From the IMG/VR virus record IMGVR_UViG_3300032240_000211, positions 1 through 31,393 of that record: a DNA stretch of 31,393 bases. One strand, written 5' to 3'. The position numbers were made by a program, and so were the translations under genes. The stretch's first letter is position 1; the number at the start of each line of letters is the position of its first letter. Positions 3,524-17,147 of this stretch are shown here, one piece after another. Under the pieces are notes generated by a model that did no database searches, was not told where the DNA came from, and saw nothing but the letters and a program-made list of their open reading frames with translations. The stretch comes from a virus.

Positions 3524-4627
3524 TTACTCTAACTCGAAGTGAATGTTCTCACCGTGCGGGGCTTCAATGTCTGAGGAGATACACCACACGATGGGATATC
3601 CCTGATCAACTCCAAAATCTGTATAGCCGTCTGTGAGACATACAAATACCTGAGGGTCAATACCATGTTCAGCGCAATACTCAAACCCAGCAGGCATATG
3701 AGTACCCCCACCACTAAAGAACTCAAGGTTAACTTCTTCACCGCATTCAAACTCATCATGTCGTTGTACCTCTGTGTCTGTATAAAGAACGTGAACTTTG
3801 TCTGGTCTGCATTGGGCAATGATGCGTGATAGGTGACCGTTGTAATACGCTAGTTCAGTCTTAGAGATTGATCCAGACACGTCGACTTGCACAACAAGTT
3901 CTCCCATCTGTGGCAACTTATCTGTCGATGGTAGATAGTCCTCGAACCTACGATTGCGACGACGCCATGTCTGTCCTTGCTGTACACATGAGGTCATGTA
4001 CTTCTCGAGGATGTCGTGCCAAGGAGTCTTGACTTCCAATAAGTCGGACACAATCTCGGCTAACTTGCCTGATAACTTACCGCGCATCTTGGCAGCCTGT
4101 GCCGCTTCTGCGATCTCTACCTTCATACGACCCTCGATCTCTCGTATCTCATCAGGTGTAAGGGGCTTGCTATCTTTGCCCACACCATCTCCGTAGATGA
4201 TGTCTTCACCCGTACCATCGGGACCGTCTTGACCTTCAGGCAGTGAGTCGTATATCTGCTCAGTAGTCTGATCCTTGCTACCCTTCATGTCCACGCAGTT
4301 GGGTATACGCTGTCCGACATTAGAGTCATCGAGTGTGTCATTGATCCACGCATCACCTGCATAGTTCCACTTCTTGGGATTACGAGAACCGAGTCGAAGT
4401 GCATGCTGTGCGATCACATGACCCACCTCATGACATAAGCCCCATACGATCTGAGGGACAGTAAGTCCTTCAACGAACTTGGCGTTGTAATAGATATTGC
4501 CACGAGCATCGACTGCCAGTGTTGGTATCTCAGTAGTCTCGATCAACTTACGACGCAACAGGATTGCCGCGAAGAACGGATGATCTAGCACAATCTGTGC
4601 TTTCGCTTTGTCTAACTTGGTAGCCAT
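3524..4627 (-). CDS. Zincin-like plus VWA domain protein (DUF2201-type)
   Basis: 367 aa, two domains. Residues about 30-130 are a putative metallopeptidase domain with HEVGH at 66-70 and H75, followed by NPKKWNYAGDAWIND, the usual continuation in the DUF2201 N-terminal domain. The C-terminal part (about 240-367) is a von Willebrand A-like domain with an intact-looking metal-ion-dependent adhesion site: DVSGS at 249-253, T309 in SGGGTH, and D333 in LTDG. In bacteria such proteins pair with MoxR-type AAA+ ATPases, and one lies two genes upstream here (5532-6536). The ATPase probably remodels client complexes recruited by the VWA domain. The substrate is unknown, and protease activity is inferred only from HExxH. 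A strong AAGGAGG site precedes the ATG. Confidence 0.85.
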   Translation of the reverse strand: MATKLDKAKAQIVLDHPFFAAILLRRKLIETTEIPTLAVDARGNIYYNAKFVEGLTVPQIVWGLCHEVGHVIAQHALRLGSRNPKKWNYAGDAWINDTLDDSNVGQRIPNCVDMKGSKDQTTEQIYDSLPEGQDGPDGTGEDIIYGDGVGKDSKPLTPDEIREIEGRMKVEIAEAAQAAKMRGKLSGKLAEIVSDLLEVKTPWHDILEKYMTSCVQQGQTWRRRNRRFEDYLPSTDKLPQMGELVVQVDVSGSISKTELAYYNGHLSRIIAQCRPDKVHVLYTDTEVQRHDEFECGEEVNLEFFSGGGTHMPAGFEYCAEHGIDPQVFVCLTDGYTDFGVDQGYPIVWCISSDIEAPHGENIHFELE

Positions 4628-4636
4628 GTGTCCTCC

Positions 4637-5515
4637 TTAAGGTGTCATACCAAACATTGCCATTTTCTTGGCGATCTCATCTAACTTCTTAGCCGCTTGC
4701 TCTCTGACGATTGGCGACTGACGCAATACATCTTTGTTGTTGTCATACATCTTGATAGACGCCATCAGCACATCAGCCATGTTGTCCACGTCACTATCGC
4801 CATTGATGTTGAGCATCTTGGCTCGCTTCAAGCCCTCGACTACATTCTCCACAGCCGTGTCACGGAAGATAGAGTTCTCAGTACCGATCGGTTTGTTCAA
4901 CTTCTCGACTAAGTGTTGCAGTGGTTCTAACATACCCTTGATGACCTCAGTCCTCGCACTACGCGCCACGGAATCCATCGACTCATTGAATGCTTTCATG
5001 TCATCGTCGCTGATATCGAAAAGGAAGTGCTTAGCATCAGGTAGTGGAGTGAATCGCATGTCGAACCCCATACGGCTTTGGAATTCCTCTGAACTAGGAT
5101 AGTCTTCTACCTTGGCTCTGGAGTTCGGACTTAGGCTTCTGTGTTGTATGTCAAGTTGTACATATGTGTCGTACTTAGGCATATGCAGTGCCATCATGTT
5201 GTCCATCCCGTTGATACGCTGACGCATCGCTGAGGTGTAGTCCATGTACTGTTCGTTAGGCAGAATGCGTGGACCTTTGTCAATGTATGGCAGTGTGTGC
5301 GTTTTGTGATAGGTGTAGACCTCTGACGCGGCAGTCATGATTTTGTTGATGGGGTTGAGTTTGTCCCTAAACAATTTAGAGTTGACAACCAATGAGGTAT
5401 CGTCCATCTGTTGTTGGATCACAGCCTCGGCTATCGTGTCTCGCTTGGTTAGGTTGGCTCGGCGCACAGTCAGTTTGACTAGCATCGCTTTGGATGCAAG
5501 GGTGGTTAATTCCAT
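4637..5515 (-). CDS. Hypothetical protein between AAA ATPase and VWA genes
   Basis: 292 aa, mostly helical and charged, with no recognised motif. The N-terminus (MELTTLASKAMLVKLTVRRA) is basic. The centre contains PSSEEFQSRMGFDMRFTPLP. The C-terminal third (DNMADVLMASIKMYDNNKDV, then AAKKLDEIAKKMAMFG) is helical and possibly coiled-coil. GGAG lies about 7 nt before the ATG. It is sandwiched between the MoxR-like ATPase (16 nt upstream) and the zincin/VWA gene (9 nt downstream). The best inference is a third subunit or client of that module. Similar three-gene sets occur in other phages to my knowledge, but I cannot search for them. Confidence 0.65.
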   Translation of the reverse strand: MELTTLASKAMLVKLTVRRANLTKRDTIAEAVIQQQMDDTSLVVNSKLFRDKLNPINKIMTAASEVYTYHKTHTLPYIDKGPRILPNEQYMDYTSAMRQRINGMDNMMALHMPKYDTYVQLDIQHRSLSPNSRAKVEDYPSSEEFQSRMGFDMRFTPLPDAKHFLFDISDDDMKAFNESMDSVARSARTEVIKGMLEPLQHLVEKLNKPIGTENSIFRDTAVENVVEGLKRAKMLNINGDSDVDNMADVLMASIKMYDNNKDVLRQSPIVREQAAKKLDEIAKKMAMFGMTP

Positions 5516-5531
5516 TAGGGTTCTCCAGTGG

Positions 5532-6536
5532 TTAAGATAAGACGCTAGCGTTCTTCACAGCCCATGCTACGAATGCTTTGGTATTCACGATCTCAGGCTT
5601 GATCTTCTTGGAATCCAATACACACATAACTTGGAACTCGGGGGGCATACGGCCGATGTACTCGCATACACGATCGAAGTTGTCTTTGCTAACACGATGA
5701 GCAAGCGCACCAGTCAACGCAAACAACACGGGCATATCGTCAGGCACATTGGCTTTGGCGGGGTTCATCAAGATGCCATCGATGTCAGGCAAGTTCTCGA
5801 AGATGCGTTTGAATCCTGTGTACTCAGCCGCCGCGCCCTCGCCTACCAGACCTGCGATGTTGCCAAAATACAACTCGCTAGATAACTCAGGTGCAACCTC
5901 ATTGACCGCCGCCCATGAGCGAGGTGTTGGATTGATTGAGCGGTTGGAGTCGAAGTCCGATAGCAAGTTGGGTCTGAAACGCAGGAACTGAATGAGTTCC
6001 ACGGCTAGTCCGTTGTCCAATGCCCAACTACACCAGTCGTCCAAGTTCTCGTCGAAGGTCAGTTGTTGTAAGCGATTGCCCAGTTTGGTAGTCATACGGG
6101 TTGCGCCAGACTTGTCTTCTGTACGATTACCTGTCGCAATGATGTGCAACTTAGGGTGCAACTTCAACTCACCGGCATAGCGATCAAGCACTACCCTACA
6201 CATCGGATTTTGCATAGGTATCGGGGCATCTGTGAACTCCTCTAATATAAGAGCACACGGTTGGTCAGTCCCGTCATCGCGCAGTCGATAGAACTCTGAG
6301 GGTGGAACCCATCGAGAGAACTCACCGTCAGTCTTGGGCAAGCCCATAATGTCCACAGGATCACGCAACGATGGATTGAATTCAGTAACCCGCTCAGGGT
6401 TAATACCTAGTTCCTTCACAATGTCACGGGCTAGTGAACTCTTACCTCCCCCGGGCTTACCGAGGATTGCAGGCACAAGTTGGTTACCTCGTTGGAAGTT
6501 AGCCAATACAGATGTTTTAATGTCTGAGTATTTCAT
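5532..6536 (-). CDS. MoxR-like AAA+ ATPase
   Basis: 334 aa. Walker A GKPGGGKSS is at 26-34. Residues LILEE at 96-100 form the Walker B. HIIATGNRTED at about 131-141 is sensor 1. GATRMTTKLGNRL follows, as in MoxR proteins (P-loop AAA+ of the helix-2-insert clade). RDPVDIMGLP after Walker A is also MoxR-like. It probably forms a ring that uses ATP to remodel a partner, most likely through the VWA protein at 3524-4627. Length fits a stand-alone MoxR core. The ribosome site is weak (AAAGAAAG). The leader is unusual: a G-free, C-rich stretch about 30 nt long and a possible pseudoknot further upstream. Confidence 0.9.
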   Translation of the reverse strand: MKYSDIKTSVLANFQRGNQLVPAILGKPGGGKSSLARDIVKELGINPERVTEFNPSLRDPVDIMGLPKTDGEFSRWVPPSEFYRLRDDGTDQPCALILEEFTDAPIPMQNPMCRVVLDRYAGELKLHPKLHIIATGNRTEDKSGATRMTTKLGNRLQQLTFDENLDDWCSWALDNGLAVELIQFLRFRPNLLSDFDSNRSINPTPRSWAAVNEVAPELSSELYFGNIAGLVGEGAAAEYTGFKRIFENLPDIDGILMNPAKANVPDDMPVLFALTGALAHRVSKDNFDRVCEYIGRMPPEFQVMCVLDSKKIKPEIVNTKAFVAWAVKNASVLS

Positions 6537-8609: not shown

Positions 8610-8771
8610 TTACGAGGTTTCCCAGTCAGCATATATAAACATGCCTACGATCGTGGCTGTGCACCCAGAGTAGAAGAAACAGATATCTCTAAGATATCCA
8701 TCGAAGTGGAGTCCAAAAGCGAATGACGCGCATGATATGGCTGTGGTTAGCACAAGGTGTATAGATTTCAT
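8610..8771 (-). CDS. 53-aa membrane protein, two hydrophobic segments
   Basis: The frame reads MKSIHLVLTTAISCASFAFG, a hydrophilic turn (LHFDGYLRDI), then CFFYSGCTATIVGMFIYADW and ETS. Two hydrophobic stretches (about 5-20 and 31-47) predict a small two-pass hairpin membrane protein. AAGGAAATCTGGTC precedes the ATG, which overlaps the stop of the previous gene by ATGA. Its role is unknown. A holin is conceivable, but early-operon position makes a host-membrane function equally likely. Confidence 0.6.
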   Translation of the reverse strand: MKSIHLVLTTAISCASFAFGLHFDGYLRDICFFYSGCTATIVGMFIYADWETS

Positions 8772-8926
8772 GACCAGATTTCCTTATAGGTTGCGTTGAT
8801 GGCATCGTCCAATGATTCGGTGGTCTCATCGGTGTTTGGTGTGTATTCGCATACGAATTCCTCATCGTCCATGAAGTCCAATGGGTTATCGGTTGTGCGT
8901 GGAATGACTAGATACATTAAAGACAT
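8768..8926 (-). CDS. 52-aa acidic protein, first gene of the leftward operon
   Basis: The frame reads MSLMYLVIPRTTDNPLDFMD, then DEEFVCEYTPNTDETTESLD, ending DAINATYKEIWS. AAAGGAAACGCTC gives a good ribosome site. It is the promoter-proximal gene of the long leftward operon and lies right next to repeat copy 8944-8963. Small acidic first genes in phage operons are often host-factor inhibitors. That is speculation; no family is recognised. Confidence 0.6.
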   Translation of the reverse strand: MSLMYLVIPRTTDNPLDFMDDEEFVCEYTPNTDETTESLDDAINATYKEIWS

Positions 8927-8943: not shown

Positions 8944-8963
8944 GGTGTGGCAGATGTGTGTAT
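8944..8963 (-). repeat. Control motif copy R1
   Basis: The plus strand reads GGTGTGGCAGATGTGTGTAT, ending 17 bp before the start codon of the 8768-8926 gene (transcribed leftward). It is followed by GTAAATACAC, making a small dyad with GTGTAT. It is identical to copy R2. Confidence 0.65.
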
Positions 8964-8999
8964 GTAAATACACGGGTGAAATAGACGAGTGTCTATATA

Positions 9000-9019
9000 G
9001 GTGTGGCAGATGTGTGTAT
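9000..9019 (-). repeat. Control motif copy R2
   Basis: Identical over 20 bp to R1 (8944-8963), spaced 56 bp from it, and followed by ACATACAT. On the minus strand it is followed by CTATATAG, a possible promoter -10-like run. Confidence 0.65.
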
Positions 9020-9042
9020 ACATACATCAAACCTTGTGGTAC

Positions 9043-9063
9043 ACTTCTGCCTATGGCAGAAGT
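9043..9063. promoter_or_regulatory. Perfect palindrome, operator-like
   Basis: Arms ACTTCTGCC (9043-9051) and GGCAGAAGT (9055-9063) with a 3-nt centre TAT. It sits between motif copies R2 and R3. There is no T-tract on either side, so an operator is more likely than a terminator. Confidence 0.45.
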
Positions 9064-9064
9064 A

Positions 9065-9084
9065 GGTGTGGCGATTGTGTGTAT
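9065..9084 (-). repeat. Control motif copy R3 (variant)
   Basis: GGTGTGGCGATTGTGTGTAT. The left GGTGTGGC and right TGTGTGTAT match R1 and R2; the centre differs (GAT for AGA). It sits immediately before the LexA-like box at 9090-9109. Confidence 0.55.
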
Positions 9085-9089
9085 ATCGA

Positions 9090-9109
9090 TACTGTATTTG
9101 CATACAGTT
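9090..9109. promoter_or_regulatory. LexA (SOS)-like box
   Basis: TACTGTATTTGCATACAGTT. It contains CTGT-N8-ACAG with 7-bp symmetric arms ACTGTAT/ATACAGT, the arrangement of the proteobacterial LexA operator. It lies about 165 bp upstream of the leftward operon, among the repeated motifs. Binding is not demonstrated, and surrounding TGTAT-rich DNA raises the chance of coincidence. Confidence 0.4.
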
Positions 9110-9130
9110 TTTGCTGAGTTGAAAATTGAC

Positions 9131-9407
9131 CAACAAATTCAAACCCAATAGGCATGCGGGTTGCGAGAGAATTTGTGAATTTGCGGTGTTTTCCAGAGGG
9201 TCAGGCGGGTTACGCGATTATGTGATTGTGTGTATGTTATACACACCTCTGCGCATGTATCCAATACATACACTCTCTATATCTTTCTGACCCTTAATAT
9301 ATATAACAAATTCACAAATTCACAAATTACCCCTTGGCAACCCGCATGAAATCGACATTCTTGAATTTGCTGATGAATTTGCTACTTTTGGACACAACAA
9401 ATTCAAA
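9131..9407. other. Candidate replication origin: nested dyad with CAAATTC words
   Basis: Three nested inverted pairs share nearly one centre (about 9245-9250): 9153-9164 with 9337-9348 (12 bp perfect), 9169-9183 with 9307-9321 (15 bp perfect), and 9197-9204 with 9287-9294 (8 bp perfect). Within lie perfect small dyads 9228-9246 and 9255-9269. CAAATTC or its complement occurs eight times (9134, 9169, 9177, 9307, 9315, 9363, 9375, 9398), including a tandem 8-bp repeat at 9307-9329 next to an AT-only run. A 13-bp direct repeat flanks it (9131-9143, 9395-9407). Iterons plus an AT-rich unwinding-like segment are typical of origins. No initiator gene is identified in the window. Confidence 0.4.
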
Positions 9408-9427
9408 GGTGTGGCAGATGTATGTAT
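9408..9427 (-). repeat. Control motif copy R4
   Basis: GGTGTGGCAGATGTATGTAT, one base different from R1 and R2 over 20 bp, followed by ACACACGC. It lies immediately right of the candidate origin. Confidence 0.6.
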
Positions 9428-9528
9428 ACACACGCACTAGGTTTATGTGTGTCGCGGCGATCTTGGGTGATGCGCTTGTCGCGTTTGGACACGGTTGCCC
9501 AACGCTTATATGGTGTTCGGTTCGGCTC

Positions 9529-9544
9529 AGGGGGCAAGCCCCCT
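9529..9544. repeat. GC-rich hairpin downstream of 9623-10054
   Basis: Arms AGGGGGC (9529-9535) and GCCCCCT (9538-9544). It lies about 80 bp past the stop of the leftward 9623-10054 gene, so it could slow or end that transcript. There is no T-tract after it on the minus strand, so intrinsic termination is doubtful. Confidence 0.35.
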
Positions 9545-9622
9545 TGAACCTTCCGATTGTTTTCGCCGTCACGAAGTGGTGGCATTGGGGCGATTGATAC
9601 GCCCCGTGGCAAGGTGTGAACC

Positions 9623-10054
9623 TTAGGCATCAACTGTCTCAGACTTAGCAGACTCAGCGATACGCTCGACCAAGCCATACAAGAATGCATTCTGACCTTT
9701 GAGGACAAAAGACTTACCTGCTTGCTCTGCTTTCATGCGCTTAACTTGCACAGACTTTTCGACATACTCACACAGTTGCATGAGATTAGCCTTAGGCACT
9801 GGACCAGTTGGAGGAATGAACGCTTGAGCGACTTCACCCACGGCTTTCGGTAACAAAGACGATGACAAGATGTCATTGACGATAGGGCGGTATGTGCCAT
9901 TTGACAACTGGTTTACATAGATCATGCTTGAGAGATTCAAGCGTGACTGACGATCTGCAAAAGCGATAGCCTTAGCAAAAGAACCAGTTTTGCCAGTCTT
10001 GGTAGACATGACGACAGACTGCTCACCGTTAAACAATGCGATAGCATTAGACAT
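9623..10054 (-). CDS. Hypothetical protein isolated in the control region
   Basis: 143 aa. MSNAIALFNGEQSVVMSTKT, then a conserved-looking segment with SSMIYVNQLSNGTYRPIVND, and a helical end (AFLYGLVERIAESAKSETVD). Not recognised. AAGGGGA lies upstream of the ATG. It is the only gene between two long non-coding blocks that carry dyads and repeats, so a DNA-binding or replication-linked role is an attractive inference, not shown by any motif. It has its own 595-bp upstream region, so it is probably independently regulated. Confidence 0.65.
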   Translation of the reverse strand: MSNAIALFNGEQSVVMSTKTGKTGSFAKAIAFADRQSRLNLSSMIYVNQLSNGTYRPIVNDILSSSLLPKAVGEVAQAFIPPTGPVPKANLMQLCEYVEKSVQVKRMKAEQAGKSFVLKGQNAFLYGLVERIAESAKSETVDA

Positions 10055-10176
10055 AAAAATCCCCTTGAGTTAGGTTTCAAAGTAAATACTGCACCATGCA
10101 ATACCTACTTAAAAACCCACCGCCACACTTTGCCGAGCGTGTTTAGACCATGTCACGATTACATGAGTTAGGCCAT

Positions 10177-10193
10177 GCGGTAGGGTTTACCGC
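10177..10193. repeat. Perfect inverted repeat
   Basis: GCGGTA (10177-10182), 5-nt centre, TACCGC (10188-10193). It is followed at once by a second stem. Confidence 0.4.
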
Positions 10194-10216
10194 TCGCTTG
10201 CTTCACCCAAAGCGAG
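10193..10216. repeat. Perfect inverted repeat
   Basis: CTCGCTT (10193-10199), 10-nt loop, AAGCGAG (10210-10216), adjacent to the preceding dyad. Together they would give the leader of the 9623-10054 gene a compact two-stem structure. Confidence 0.4.
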
Positions 10217-10233
10217 AAAAAGTTAGGCCCATA

Positions 10234-10250
10234 GTATTACAAAGTAATAC
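10234..10250. promoter_or_regulatory. Perfect 7-bp-arm palindrome, operator-like
   Basis: GTATTAC (10234-10240), AAA, GTAATAC (10244-10250). A compact symmetric site in the divergent intergenic region, of the size a dimeric regulator would bind. Confidence 0.4.
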
Positions 10251-10390
10251 CGACACCCGAAAATAAATTGTTAAAAATCGATACGATCACGAAAAGAACA
10301 CCATGCGACCCATACATGAATGCGATAGAGTTACCCATGCAATGCGATATACGGACACAATGAACAATCGTTGCCATAAGGCGTGACGCT

Positions 10391-10408
10391 GAGAATGCGA
10401 TGATTCTC
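10391..10408. repeat. Perfect inverted repeat
   Basis: GAGAAT (10391-10396), 6-nt centre, ATTCTC (10403-10408). The right arm merges with the first copy of the 28-bp direct repeat. Confidence 0.35.
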
Positions 10409-10475
10409 ACTATGAGGTGGGCAAGTAGGTTTTAACTAATCGACCAGTCTCACTATTAGGTGGCAGGGTAGGTTC
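10405..10475. repeat. Imperfect 28-bp direct repeat pair
   Basis: TCTCACTATGAGGTGG... at 10405-10432 and TCTCACTATTAGGTGG... at 10448-10475, both ending in a GTAGGTT-type word. Spacing is 43 bp, about four helical turns, which suits two protein sites on one DNA face. Confidence 0.45.
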
Positions 10476-10499
10476 GGGCGGCAGGGGGTGGGGGGAGGG
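10476..10499 (+). other. G-quadruplex-capable tract
   Basis: Four G runs on the plus strand: 3 G at 10476-10478, 5 at 10484-10488, 6 at 10490-10495 and 3 at 10497-10499, with loops of 5, 1 and 1 nt. This meets the usual intramolecular quadruplex pattern. It lies about 150 bp upstream of the rightward genes. Confidence 0.5.
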
Positions 10500-10567
10500 A
10501 CACGGACAAGACGGGCCCCGCGCCTGTTTACGTATGGCGCACATAACAAGGTCAATTTTTTAGGAAT

Positions 10568-10586
10568 ATACATACATTCGCCACAC
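10568..10586 (+). repeat. Control motif copy R6, inverted
   Basis: The plus strand reads ATACATACATTCGCCACAC. The reverse complement (GTGTGGCGAATGTATGTAT) matches R4 at 17 of 19 bases. It faces the rightward genes just as R1-R4 face the leftward operon, about 65 bp before the 10650 start codon. Confidence 0.55.
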
Positions 10587-11540: not shown

Positions 11541-11894
11541 TTATTTTTCTTCTGGAGCTTGAGTAATGTTGAAAATGTATGTATTTCCAGCGTCTTCTCC
11601 GACAGTTTCGTCTTCTTCTTCTGGATCGACTTCAAACCACTCGTCAGTTTCTGCATCGTATTGATACCATGCGTCATTCTCTGCATCATAGAAATAATCG
11701 CCGTCTTCGTCTTCGTACTCTTCGTCTTCGGCTTCTTCTTCGGTTACGACGTCATAGTCCACAGCCCAGCCGTGGTCTTTTTGGAAGTCGATAAATTCTT
11801 TGATGATTTCAATCTTGTCGAAATCAAAGGTCTCGATAGTCATTACTTCGTCTTCGGTACCCCAAGCGCTGAGGTCAATGGTGATTTTGTACAT
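11541..11894 (-). CDS. Very acidic small protein
   Basis: 117 aa. The N-terminus MYKITIDLSAWGTEDEVMTI and FDFDKIEIIKEFIDFQKDHG looks like a small alpha/beta domain. Residues about 55-105 are almost all D, E, Y and W (TEEEAEDEEYEDEDGDYFYD and similar), and the end is NTYIFNITQAPEEK. I chose ATG 11894 because TTGGAGAACCT precedes it and the N-terminus then forms a strand. A longer frame from 11951 lacks a ribosome site. It is oriented against its neighbours with its own terminator, so it is an independently expressed cassette. Such acidic proteins can mimic DNA or bind basic host proteins. That is speculation. Confidence 0.7.
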   Translation of the reverse strand: MYKITIDLSAWGTEDEVMTIETFDFDKIEIIKEFIDFQKDHGWAVDYDVVTEEEAEDEEYEDEDGDYFYDAENDAWYQYDAETDEWFEVDPEEEDETVGEDAGNTYIFNITQAPEEK

Positions 11895-12177
11895 AGGTTC
11901 TCCAAGGTTAAAAGGGATACAGCTTTGGGGCTGTAACGACATGCTAGACAACCTTTATTACTTCTGCAAGACAACACTTTAGTTTTAAATTTTGTGTTGA
12001 TATACTACGTTTGTGCAGTTGTTAAATCGGCGCAATGGGGATGGAGGATTTGGTTGTTTTCCGATTTTCAAACCAAGGTTCAACGAAATGGCAGGCGAGC
12101 TTCTTACCCGTTACTGCACTTGACACACCTTAAATTGGCGTTAACATACACACGTCATTAACTCAACGGAGCCCATC
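11895..12177. other. Divergent intergenic region
   Basis: 283 bp between the leftward acidic gene and the rightward head block. On the minus strand TTAACA followed after 15 bp by TATATC (about 12001-12028) is a weak candidate promoter for the acidic gene. The right part holds the better promoter at 12120-12147. A 32-codon frame at 12035-12133 has no ribosome site and is probably not translated. Confidence 0.4.
12120..12147 (+). promoter_or_regulatory. Sigma-70-type promoter for the 12178-13567 gene cluster
   Basis: TTGACA (12120-12125, perfect -35), 16-bp spacer, TAACAT (12142-12147, 4 of 6). A start about 7 bp later would give a leader of about 24 nt with GGAG before ATG 12178. The layout matches the promoter at 17144. 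Confidence 0.55.
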
Positions 12178-12739: not shown

Positions 12740-12939
12740 TTGGCTACATTCAAAAACAAATCGACGCTAGCGAAAAACTGTTCGAGATGATGCGAGCTGA
12801 TCATAAAGAACGGATGACGCAAGTGTTGATTTGGGCCGACATGAACGAAAGTTTGATGCGCAAACTGGAAGAACGTGACCGTGAGATTGAGCGTTTGCAA
12901 AGTCTTTTAAAAGCGCACGACACTGCGGAGAAGCTGTGA
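12736..12939 (+). CDS. Small coiled-coil protein
   Basis: 67 aa. GTG start overlapping the previous stop (GTGA). IGYIQKQIDASEKLFEMMRA, then TQVLIWADMNESLMRKLEER, ending REIERLQSLLKAHDTAEKL. Almost entirely charged amphipathic helix with a clear heptad-like end, so likely a coiled-coil oligomer. It could support the assembly of packaging components. No family recognised. Confidence 0.6.
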   Translation: MIGYIQKQIDASEKLFEMMRADHKERMTQVLIWADMNESLMRKLEERDREIERLQSLLKAHDTAEKL

Positions 12940-13079
12940 TGAAACGGTACAACTTTTTCTTACCCGACGCCGTTATAGAAGCTTTACGCCAAGAGGCGCA
13001 TCGCTCTGGCTTGACCATTTCGGAGATCATCCGCAAAGTCTTGACGGTCTATACCAACAAGTTGGTCGAGAAGAAATGA
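12939..13079 (+). CDS. Ribbon-helix-helix DNA-binding protein
   Basis: 46 aa. MKRYNFFLPDAVIEALRQEA, then HRSGLTISEIIRKVLTVYTN, KLVEKK. Residues 2-8 form the DNA-reading strand, helix A is at 10-22 and helix B at 27-42, with the G-LTISEIIRK turn typical of the Arc/CopG/MetJ fold. These dimers bind operators with the strand in the major groove. The ATG overlaps the previous stop (ATGA), and its stop overlaps the next start. Position before the terminase genes suggests control of late or packaging genes. Confidence 0.8.
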   Translation: MKRYNFFLPDAVIEALRQEAHRSGLTISEIIRKVLTVYTNKLVEKK

Positions 13080-13567
13080 CCGATGACATCAGTCATTACG
13101 CAGAACATTCTGAGTTTGCGCTATCGCCAAGCGCACCGGAAGCTCACGTCACGTTAGATGTGCCACCCCAGCTAGTCTGGGAGTGTGCAGCCGGGTTGGA
13201 AGACCCCGACCATATAGCGGCAAGATTTGGGTTTACGGATCAGAAGTGGGAGCGGCTCAAACAGTGGCCGCCTTTCATACATGCAGTTCAGAACCAGAAA
13301 GCGGAGTTTGACCGTAACGGGATGACTTTCCGCCTCAAGGCCGGACTCATGGCCGAGGAGATGATGACCCAGATGTTCAAGCAAGCCATAAGCCACGACA
13401 GCTCGATACTGCAGAAACTCAGTGTGTTTAATTCTCTTGTAGACGTAGCTGGCTTAAAGCCTGACAAAAAGGCTGTGGATACAAACGTGCAGTCAGCTCC
13501 GAAATTTAGTATCACGATCAACATACCACAAGCGACGGCCCCAACGCCGATCACCATAGATGGCTAA
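13076..13567 (+). CDS. Putative terminase small subunit
   Basis: 163 aa. Its position directly before the large subunit (8-nt overlap) is the main argument. Residues about 31-60 (PPQLVWECAAGLEDPDHIAA, then FGFTDQKWERLK) resemble a helix-turn-helix, and a helical centre (TFRLKAGLMAEEMMTQMFKQ) would form the oligomerisation region. The C-terminal tail ends in NIPQATAPTPITIDG. It would recognise the packaging site and load the large subunit. Sequence alone is not diagnostic. ATGA overlap with the RHH gene. Confidence 0.65.
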   Translation: MTDDISHYAEHSEFALSPSAPEAHVTLDVPPQLVWECAAGLEDPDHIAARFGFTDQKWERLKQWPPFIHAVQNQKAEFDRNGMTFRLKAGLMAEEMMTQMFKQAISHDSSILQKLSVFNSLVDVAGLKPDKKAVDTNVQSAPKFSITINIPQATAPTPITIDG

Positions 13568-14960
13568 CCTAGTCTACACACCACCCGTCTCGGTGGTCCC
13601 ATTTTTAACATCAACTAAGTTTGCTAACTTTATTGTGGGCCCCGTGGGCTCGACAAAGACAACAGCGTCGCTTATTAAGATCGGGTACGAGGCGGCGAAA
13701 GTGAAAGCCAGTCCGGACGGCATACGGCGTAGTCGATGTGCTGTAATTCGTAATACGCGTCAGATGCTATGGGATACGACCATACCTGACTTTTTAAAAT
13801 GGTTCCCAGATCAAGAGGCAGGTATCCTTGAAAAAACTAACTCAAAATTTATTCTTAAGTTTGATGACGTTGAATGCGAAATACTTTTTCGTGGTCTTGA
13901 TGACGCTAATGACGTTCGTCGCTTGCTTTCTTTGCAGCTTACTTTTGGTGTCATGGATGAGTTTAGAGAGATTAACCCAGATATTTACAACGCGCTTACG
14001 GGCCGTTTGGGACGCTATCCAGACAAAACGATGAACGGTGTCGGTGCTTGCGATGATGAAGGCAAGCAAGTTCATAAGGTGTGGGGCGCGACTAACCCGC
14101 CAGACGCTGATACGTTTTGGGAGACCATGCTGGCCGACCCGACAGATAACATGCACGTAACGATCCAGCCTTCGGGTTTATCCCAAGAGGCGGACTGGGT
14201 GCAATACTTGCCAGACGGTTACTATGAGAACCTGTGTGAAGGCAAATCGGAGGATTGGATCGATGTCTACGTCCACGGAAAATTTGGTAAATCGTTATCA
14301 GGGCAGCCTGTATTCCGAGCTTTTGATCGAGATACACACGTCTCCAAACAAACCCTTAACCACATCAAGCTACAAACACACCCACTCATCATCGGCATGG
14401 ACTTTGGACTCACGCCTGCATGTTCAATCAATCAGATTGATGCCCAAGGAAGATTCCTCACCTTCGCTGACTTGGTCTCAGAGGGTATGGGTACGCTACG
14501 TTTCTGTCGTGAGAAACTTAAACCTCTACTGGCTAACCGTTTTCCGGGGATGAATGTCTTGATTGTGGGCGACCCTGCAGGACAGCAAAGAGCACAAACT
14601 GACGAGCGAAGCGTGTTTGACATTCTTAGAGCCGAAGGGTTTCGGGTCATTTCTGCTAAGTCCAACAGTGTTGTAGCACGTGTTAATGCAGTCGACAAGT
14701 TGTTAACACGTACGGTAGATGGCAAACCCGGTCATTTGATCGATCCAAGCTGCACACATTTAATTGCTGCACTTCGTGGCGGATATAGGTATAAAATACG
14801 ACAAAATGGGGAAGCGGACGACAAACCCGAGAAAAATTCCCATTCACACATTGCAGATGCCCATCAATACGCGTGTCTGCACGCTGATGGAAACGTCACA
14901 GGTGATGCGTGGACCCGTAAGGCCGTCGAAGTGAAACGAGTTGACTACGTGTGGACTTAA
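13560..14960 (+). CDS. terL: Terminase large subunit
   Basis: 466 aa. The ATPase domain has Walker A GPVGSTKTT at 27-35 and Walker B VMDE at 131-134 (acid pair D133, E134). The RNase-H-like nuclease domain follows, with acidic residues at D281 (IGMDFG), D338 (IVGDPAG) and D433 (SHIADAHQY), the usual three-acid metal site. It drives DNA into the prohead and cuts the concatemer. Length fits a compact podovirus-type terminase. Walker A lacks the usual Arg before the loop glycines and reads G-P-V-G-S-T-K. The ATG lies in the last 8 nt of the small-subunit gene, so the pair is coupled. Confidence 0.93.
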   Translation: MANLVYTPPVSVVPFLTSTKFANFIVGPVGSTKTTASLIKIGYEAAKVKASPDGIRRSRCAVIRNTRQMLWDTTIPDFLKWFPDQEAGILEKTNSKFILKFDDVECEILFRGLDDANDVRRLLSLQLTFGVMDEFREINPDIYNALTGRLGRYPDKTMNGVGACDDEGKQVHKVWGATNPPDADTFWETMLADPTDNMHVTIQPSGLSQEADWVQYLPDGYYENLCEGKSEDWIDVYVHGKFGKSLSGQPVFRAFDRDTHVSKQTLNHIKLQTHPLIIGMDFGLTPACSINQIDAQGRFLTFADLVSEGMGTLRFCREKLKPLLANRFPGMNVLIVGDPAGQQRAQTDERSVFDILRAEGFRVISAKSNSVVARVNAVDKLLTRTVDGKPGHLIDPSCTHLIAALRGGYRYKIRQNGEADDKPEKNSHSHIADAHQYACLHADGNVTGDAWTRKAVEVKRVDYVWT

Positions 14961-15008: not shown

Positions 15009-17147
15009 ATGCAATTAGGTTTGAACATTACTAATTCGAACGCCCCGGGTACTGTTACCACGGGTGGTATGGTCACCATTAAATCATTGAAAGCGTTGCA
15101 AGATGAGCAGCGCACAGCCGCGCAGCAACAGAACTCACAGCCTGTTGTCCAAGCCCTAGCTGGATATATTCGTAAAACTTGGATGTCATCAATGATGGCG
15201 AAGCAGCAGACATCCGAGATCAAAATGTTGAAGTCTGTTCGCGCGCGACGCGGAGAGTACGACCCCGATAAGCTTGCTCAGCTTCGGGAGCAGGGCAGTT
15301 CCACCATCTATATGATGTTGACATCGAACAAATGCCGTGCAGCATCGAGCTGGTTGCGCGACACGCTGGTGACTTCTTCTGATGAGAAGCCTTGGACAAT
15401 TAAGCCCGGTGCGATTCCTGATATTCCTCCAAATCAGATCGAGAGCATCATGCAGCAAGCTCAGCAAGAAGTTGAGCAGTTATACGCAGCAGGCCAACCG
15501 CCTACAGATCAGCAAGTGCGCGAGCGTTTGCTAGAGATGAAAGATATGGCGATGTCTCATCTAAAAGACATGGCGACCCGCACTGCAGAACGCATGGAAG
15601 TCAAGATGACTGACCAGCTGCAAGAAGGCGGCTGGAGCAAAGCGTTTAGTGATTTTCTAGACGACATTACTACATTCCCATCAGCATTTATTAAGGGGCC
15701 AGTTGTTCGCAAGCGCCCTAAAATGAAGTGGATACCAACGCAAGACGGCCAGTACCAGATCGACATCCAAGATCAGTTGTGCCTCGAGTGGGAACGTGTT
15801 GATCCGTTTAATATTTATCCTGCTGCAGATGCAAATGACGTCAACGATGGCTCATTGATTGAGAGACATAAGCTACAACGTAGCGACTTGCAAGCCCTGA
15901 TGGGCGTTGAGGGTTACAGCGACGGCGCGATTCGCATGGTGCTCGAGGAGTACGGCAAGGGCGGACTGCGCGATTGGATTTACGTTGACATGAACAAGGC
16001 TTCGGCTGAAGGCAAGTCAACAATGGGTGTGCAGCAAAACCCATCGGCATTGATTGATGCTCTACAGTACTGGGGCAATGTACAAGGCCAGTTGCTACGC
16101 GACTGGGGCATGACAGAAGACGAAATACCTGATCCTCTAATGGACTATGCGATTGAAGCATGGGTTATTGGGCATTGGGTTATCAAGGCTGTGCTAAATC
16201 CCGATCCACTGGGTCGTAAACCTTACTACAAGGCGTCATATGAAGAAGTTCCGGGAGCATATTGGGGTAACTCTGTTGCTGATCTCGCTAGGGATGCCCA
16301 AGATATCTGTAACGCTGCCGCGCGTGCGCTGGTAAATAACATGTCGATCGCCTCGGGTCCGCAGGTGGTCTACAACATCGATCGTTTACCACAGGGCGAG
16401 AACATCACACAGATGTATCCTTGGAAAGTCTGGCAAGTCACAAGTGACCCAATGGCTGGTGGTGCAGCTCCTATGCAGTTCTTCCAGCCTAGCTCGCTCT
16501 CCCAAGAGTTGATGGCTGTGTATGAAAAATTCTCTGTATTAGCCGATGAATATACGGGTATACCCCGATATATGACGGGCGATAGCGCTGCAGGCGGCGC
16601 AGGCCGTACAGCCTCAGGTATGAGTATGCTCATGTCTAACGCTGGCAAAGCCATCAAGCAAGTTATTGCGTCTATTGATGAGAATGTGATTCGCTTAGCT
16701 ATTGAACGGTTGTATTTTTACAACATGCGCTACGGAGATGACCCAGATTTGAAGGGCGATGTCAACATTGTTGCTCGCGGAGCCGTTTCGTTATTAGTTA
16801 AAGAACAAGCTCAGATGCGCCAGACTCAGTTCTTGCAAATTGCTTTGTCTAACCCGATGACTGCACAAATTGTTGGGGTAGAAGGTATTGCAGAACTATT
16901 GCGTCAGTCTGCTAAGACACTAGACTTGAATCCAGACAACATCGTGCCGCCCATCGAGATTATTAAGGCTCGTATGGCGCAGCAACAACAGCAAGCGGCC
17001 ATGCAACAACAGCAGTTGGAGATGGCTCAGCAAGGCGGACAAGCAGCTGCGGGTGGCACACCACCTAACGCGCGACCCGGTGCAACATTAGAAAATGGCG
17101 CACCTGTAACCAACAATTTCGCTCCGATGAGTGGAGTTGGCTCTTGA
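15009..17147 (+). CDS. Portal protein
   Basis: 712 aa. The N-terminus (MQLGLNITNSNAPGTVTTGG) leads to a large mixed domain. Key pieces include SNKCRAASSWLRDTLVTSSD, LCLEWERVDPFNIYPAADAN and SMSMLMSNAGKAIKQVIASI-type segments (at about 535-555) of the wing and crown. The C-terminus is Q-rich (MAQQQQQAAMQQQQLEMAQQ) then disordered. Size and order (after terL, before scaffold and capsid) match the dodecameric portal of podovirus-like phages. It forms the vertex channel for DNA entry and the joining site for connector proteins. The ribosome site is weak; the frame shows no earlier start. Confidence 0.85.
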   Translation: MQLGLNITNSNAPGTVTTGGMVTIKSLKALQDEQRTAAQQQNSQPVVQALAGYIRKTWMSSMMAKQQTSEIKMLKSVRARRGEYDPDKLAQLREQGSSTIYMMLTSNKCRAASSWLRDTLVTSSDEKPWTIKPGAIPDIPPNQIESIMQQAQQEVEQLYAAGQPPTDQQVRERLLEMKDMAMSHLKDMATRTAERMEVKMTDQLQEGGWSKAFSDFLDDITTFPSAFIKGPVVRKRPKMKWIPTQDGQYQIDIQDQLCLEWERVDPFNIYPAADANDVNDGSLIERHKLQRSDLQALMGVEGYSDGAIRMVLEEYGKGGLRDWIYVDMNKASAEGKSTMGVQQNPSALIDALQYWGNVQGQLLRDWGMTEDEIPDPLMDYAIEAWVIGHWVIKAVLNPDPLGRKPYYKASYEEVPGAYWGNSVADLARDAQDICNAAARALVNNMSIASGPQVVYNIDRLPQGENITQMYPWKVWQVTSDPMAGGAAPMQFFQPSSLSQELMAVYEKFSVLADEYTGIPRYMTGDSAAGGAGRTASGMSMLMSNAGKAIKQVIASIDENVIRLAIERLYFYNMRYGDDPDLKGDVNIVARGAVSLLVKEQAQMRQTQFLQIALSNPMTAQIVGVEGIAELLRQSAKTLDLNPDNIVPPIEIIKARMAQQQQQAAMQQQQLEMAQQGGQAAAGGTPPNARPGATLENGAPVTNNFAPMSGVGS

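Follow-up and report, generated by a model that had tools for sequence, protein, structure and literature searches.

Copies of a 19-bp motif stand upstream of two divergent transcription units in a 31,393-base stretch of viral DNA (the window, which is the whole IMG/VR record). The window is apparently a fragment of a podovirus-like phage. The questions raised by this locus are what the copies are for and which protein reads them. The sequence-only reading had taken the motif as a phage-specific operator or promoter element facing both units. As described below, the motif is real, conserved and ordinary in kind, a putative phage operator, but its conserved setting is unusually elaborate. Searches of the isolate phage collection found no DNA-level match to the region, and no close homologue of the ribbon-helix-helix (RHH) protein considered below was found among isolated phages, so that no annotated relative helps. 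The genome collection contributed only one distant terminase, in a Cloacimonadota bin. The motif was compared across about 80 uncultured relatives.

Copies of the motif in the window

The motif occurs five times in the window, four times on the minus strand and once on the plus strand (Table 1). When up to three mismatches were permitted, six matches were found in the 31,393 bases while 0.10 were expected. None of 100 shuffled sequences gave six matches, and a backwards-pattern control had no match in the window. The sixth match, located at 11566, has three mismatches and is without the GCCACAC half. The five copies recognized earlier from the letters exist, and the coordinate of the right copy was exact, but those of the four left copies were 1 base low. 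The left copies, seen as GTGTGGC... on the plus strand, are ATACAYACANNNGCCACAC on the minus strand. Partial copies had also been reported near 9223-9237; they are real and are better seen as an inverted pair at 9228-9246. As the sequence-only reading would have it, the motif is clustered and not scattered over the window.

All four left copies lie between the leftward gene 9623-10054 and the ATG at 8926, and are therefore upstream only of the operon starting at 8926. The dyads at 9012-9025 and 9420-9433 are near-perfect, and since the copies at 9001 and 9409 are halves of them, the orientation of these two copies depends on the GCCACAC half. The claim that the motif faces both divergent units stands as far as copies and orientation go. 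However, the symmetry is partly an accident of this genome. The right copy is part of a conserved block of the terminase operon and not an element of the GNAT gene, and the left array is a clade-specific expansion around the origin-like region that more distant relatives, with an identical gene order, do not have in that form.

Table 1. Features of the locus, with positions in the window
Feature	Position	Strand	Description
First leftward-operon gene	8768..8926	-	52 aa
Motif copy 1	8945..8963	-	18 bp from ATG at 8926, immediately 5′ of the ribosome-binding site of the first leftward gene
Motif copy 2	9001..9019	-	ATACAYAC half within dyad GTGTGTATACATAC at 9012-9025
Palindrome CTTCTGCCTATGGCAGAAG	9044..9062	.	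In relatives, directly after the -10 of a sigma70-type promoter
Motif copy 3	9066..9084	-	Flanked by the LexA-like box and palindrome CTTCTGCCTATGGCAGAAG
LexA-like box TACTGTATTTGCATACAGTT	9090..9109	.	Adjoins motif copy 3
Origin-like non-coding region	9117..9407	.	GGGTCAG core surrounded by inverted arrays of AATTTGTGAATTTG-type repeats
Inverted pair of ATACACAC half-sites	9228..9246	.	GTGTGTAT-GTT-ATACACAC, core of the origin-like region
Motif copy 4	9409..9427	-	Beyond the origin-like region; half of dyad GTATGTATACACAC at 9420-9433
Conserved block	10480..10586	+	G-tract, GGGACACGG, GC stretch, TTTACGTATNGCNCAC, AACAAGG, T-tract, motif
Motif copy 5	10568..10586	+	3′ end of the conserved block 5′ of the terminase operon
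Sigma70-type promoter	12120..12147	+	TTGACA-N16-TAACAT; serves the operon with the RHH and terminase genes
Core word CATACACAC	12145..12153	+	Spans -10/+1 of the terminase-operon promoter
RHH protein, candidate reader	12939..13079	+	46 aa; stop overlaps the start of the next gene
Probable small terminase subunit	13076..13567	+	31% identity to the product of the gene before the Rollin large terminase
Large terminase	13560-14960

Conservation of the word in relatives

An alignment of 35 distinct sequences was used to define a conserved block of about 100 bp, composed of a G-tract, GGGACACGG, a GC-rich stretch, TTTACCTATTGCNCAC, AACAAGG, a run of A or T, and ATACACACGT. Within the block, two clades differ in the second half of the motif, one having GCCACACC and the other CTACATACAT. 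Over the relatives as a whole, the core of the motif is the 8-mer ATACAYAC and the GCCACAC second half is clade-specific. The ATACAYAC site of the block is present in 43 of the 48 distinct upstream regions. A loss of the motif from close relatives had been named as evidence against a control element; the right copy is kept at one place 5′ of the terminase operon in relatives with terminase identities mostly of 87-100%, but retention of the left array is limited to the three closest relatives (G013 and L086, and partly L007). The four-copy array is absent from G003 and G007, where GAATATTC repeats are found in its place, and one or two leftward-facing words occur in the left region of some other relatives. 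More widely, the word recurs at control regions of dozens of related phages, chiefly just 5′ of DNA-packaging genes.

The block is separated from the terminase-operon promoter, both in the window and in its closest relatives, by a GNAT gene, an HNH gene and further sequence; the appearance of the GNAT gene as the target is therefore incidental. No notable single-strand DNA fold of the block was found (z 0.45). The GC-rich stretch at 10500-10530 is near-constant in length and variable in sequence between conserved flanks, and the contigs of several relatives start nearby.

The word was found in exact register on TTGAC-N16-(T/C)ANNAT promoters in 34 of the 48 regions. It has the same register at the G007 promoter located 5′ of a PD-(D/E)XK exonuclease gene and at matching promoters in G003 and G001. 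L088 differs in having the word within the -35/-10 spacer, and G010 carries two copies immediately 5′ of the RHH ATG. Promoters for a single-subunit phage RNA polymerase are another possible identity of the word; a search for such a polymerase gave no PF00940 match in 15 records, with control genomes equally silent. These comparisons showed that the motif is clustered, conserved and oriented, and that it is located at the block, at -10/+1 of the terminase-operon promoter and in the origin-like region. The proposal of a lineage-specific cis-acting element at phage control regions is well supported because the motif is not scattered, occupies fixed places in many relatives, and has a core that is one-way upstream of the RHH gene in phages retrieved by that gene alone.

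The RHH protein and the predicted operator

The 46-aa product encoded before the terminase genes matched Pfam RHH_1 (PF01402) with 21.9 bits, above the curated cut-off of 20.5. Its predicted model (pLDDT 90.4) has the RHH fold, with TM values of 0.76-0.81 to CopG and 0.65-0.76 to Arc; Foldseek E-values were about 0.03 or weaker owing to the short chain. Residues R3 and N5 are invariant in all members compared and align with the DNA-reading strand of the CopG/Arc fold. The RHH gene is near the gene for the small terminase subunit (TerS) in nearly all relatives with a complete region, often overlapping it or less than 20 bases away. The large terminase shares 41% identity with that of Pseudomonas phage Rollin and 38% with that of BcepC6B. 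No useful report of an RHH protein linked to a pac site or a terminase was found among the literature matches listed.

Loci were retrieved through the RHH protein alone, so that the test did not rest wholly on the original motif; 14 of them were distinct and divergent. Within 900 bp upstream of the RHH gene in these 14, ATACAYAC was found 10 times in the forward and never in the reverse orientation, while 0.43 occurrences were expected and the maximum in 300 shuffles was 3. A control of the 900 bp downstream gave six forward and no reverse matches, and the forward bias is therefore not confined to the upstream side. Among all 8-mers upstream of the RHH gene in 29 loci, ATACACAC ranked first (20 forward, 0 reverse). 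Two results count against the RHH link: the RHH-bearing loci L234-L237 lack a site within 900 bp upstream, and G014 carries the word, yet no RHH gene was found in its terminase locus, L084. The RHH protein and the word may also both have been inherited through shared lineage descent. Besides the RHH protein, another conserved DNA-binding candidate is the MarR/activator-like product of 148-675. By association within one lineage, the RHH protein is a strong candidate, the leading one, for the reader of the motif.

We hypothesized that the operator is built on the half-site ATACAYAC, used one-way as ATACAYACRTNNGCCACACC and in places as the dyad GTRTGTATACAYAC. The small phage RHH repressor, produced from the same operon as the terminase, would bind these sites, repress its own operon and regulate further control regions of the phage. 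The four-copy array of this clade would bring the leftward operon and the origin-like region under the same control. On the evidence of sequence comparison, we give an even chance to this reading, a predicted phage operator with the RHH repressor as its reader. Three further observations count against it. A simple operator would not require a block as elaborate as this one of about 100 bp, no helical phasing was seen in the spacing between the block site and the TTGACA promoter (p 0.77), and no recognisable sigma70 promoter was found under the left copies.

Known systems offer partial parallels. As in the case of P22 Arc and Mnt, there is a small RHH protein, phage promoters and short half-sites, and the predicted fold matches Arc; unlike in P22, the candidate RHH gene is located with terminase genes, and a large conserved block and an origin-like region are among the sites. 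CopG, a 45-aa RHH repressor of plasmid copy number that represses its own promoter, has the nearest fold among well-studied proteins (32% identity across 41 residues). However, it belongs to a plasmid system, its operator has a different sequence, and autoregulation in the phage is putative. The prediction provides a candidate operator and regulator for an uncultured podovirus lineage that is found in many metagenomes and has no close isolate in the collection searched.

Alternative readings and neighbouring elements

The setting of the block also brings packaging to mind. The block that ends in the motif could be a packaging initiation site (pac or cosB-like), the motif being the word recognized by the terminase complex, possibly through the RHH protein, and the other sites being secondary. 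This is in agreement with a non-coding stretch that is deeply conserved directly 5′ of the terminase operon, with an architecture still recognisable in several phages that have distant RHH proteins, with an RHH gene that often overlaps or abuts the TerS gene, and with several contigs that begin within the block. The general layout of lambda cosB (R sites) and pac is similar in having an oriented word beside terminase genes and an A/T-tract between conserved segments, but no defined genome end was found at the block. Most contigs span it, and the starts of the others are at differing positions and may only reflect poor assembly of the G-rich stretch. Furthermore, G023 closes on itself by a 127-base overlap and is unbroken at the block, and the word is also present at the exonuclease promoter and in the origin-like region. 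On balance we consider a packaging site unlikely. A broader version, in which the block and ATACAYAC are the packaging initiation site of a large uncultured podovirus lineage, the RHH protein is both the sequence-reading part of the terminase and the operon repressor, and one word joins packaging, late transcription and replication, is in our opinion quite improbable. Should the block also be a packaging site, it would represent a new mode of DNA recognition by a terminase. Headful packaging has been proposed for Bcep22-like phages (PMC9144972).

The exact register of TTGAC-N16-(T/C)ANNAT followed by ACACAC at many promoters, together with such a promoter at the upstream site in L226, would be understandable if the word were part of promoters read by the host (the -10 end and discriminator), and not a protein operator, and if the block were itself a promoter. 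However, other strong-looking promoters of the same phages do not have the word. The word is missing from the one at 17144 (TTGACA-N16-CATAAT) and from the probable equivalents of that promoter in relatives, which indicates that it is not a general sigma70 feature. The spacer location in L088, the lack of TTGACA at the matching distance from most block sites, and the existence of dyads and inverted pairs also argue against this explanation, to which we assign a rather low probability. Alternatively, the sites could bind an activator of a -35-less promoter for the Atu_At1-like RNA encoded downstream of the block. The promoters of this RNA have no clear -35, and the distances from site to RNA -10 (28, 30, 40, 41, 42, 51, 52, 60, 62, 71 and 86) fit a 10.5-bp phasing (R 0.69, nominal p about 0.001), but p rises to 0.047 when distances that are nearly equal are merged, an initial automatic set of distances gave p 0.042, and the -10 elements were picked by eye. 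In addition, no copy of the RNA was detected in several block-bearing loci, and in the window it is 1.4 kb from the block, all of which leaves an activator site highly improbable. The left array might also be a set of iterons for a replication initiator, with regulation being incidental. Its copies flank the origin-like region, which we infer to act as an origin, together with other repeats, and the core of that region has an inverted pair. Nevertheless, more distant relatives keep origin-like repeats (GAATATTC) without the left array, and the most conserved site is that of the terminase operon, so we regard iterons as very unlikely. DnaA boxes (TTWTNCACA, with CACA invariant) were rejected as the identity of the word because CACA is disrupted in the ATACATAC variants and conservation does not extend to the leading TT.

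Other elements were observed at the locus and in its relatives. The ends of G023 (L267, L268; 59,775 bases) share 127 identical bases, which makes it likely to be a complete genome, of about 59,648 bp, that assembled as a circle. Positions 12011-12117 (+), which fall between the block and the promoter of the terminase operon, matched Rfam RF02496 Atu_At1 with 69 bits (cut-off 60), as did sequences in L033, L054, L055 and L028. This family is described as a Rhizobiales sRNA, and the literature searched contained nothing on it. In the relatives inspected, a -10-like TATACT or TACAAT lies 6-7 bases 5′ of the start of the RNA. The LexA-like box at 9090-9109, placed between the origin-like repeats and the leftward operon, agrees with the E. 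coli consensus at 16 of 20 positions; similar boxes are present in G013, L086, L007, L021, L028 and L049. The box suggests a possible SOS link. The palindrome CTTCTGCCTATGGCAGAAG has matched changes in both arms among relatives and is located just 3′ of a sigma70-type -10 in G002, G003, G006 and G009; an operator and a leader hairpin are possible readings. The gene at 9623-10054 (-) encodes a 143-aa protein with no family assigned. It is kept between the two modules in G007, G009, G010 and L088, and no homologue of its product was detected in G003. Finally, a cluster at 3524-6536 (-) that is kept in relatives comprises an ATPase-like gene (5532-6536), a DUF2201 VWA-like gene (3524-4627) and a gene for a 292-aa product between them, and resembles a MoxR-VWA pair.
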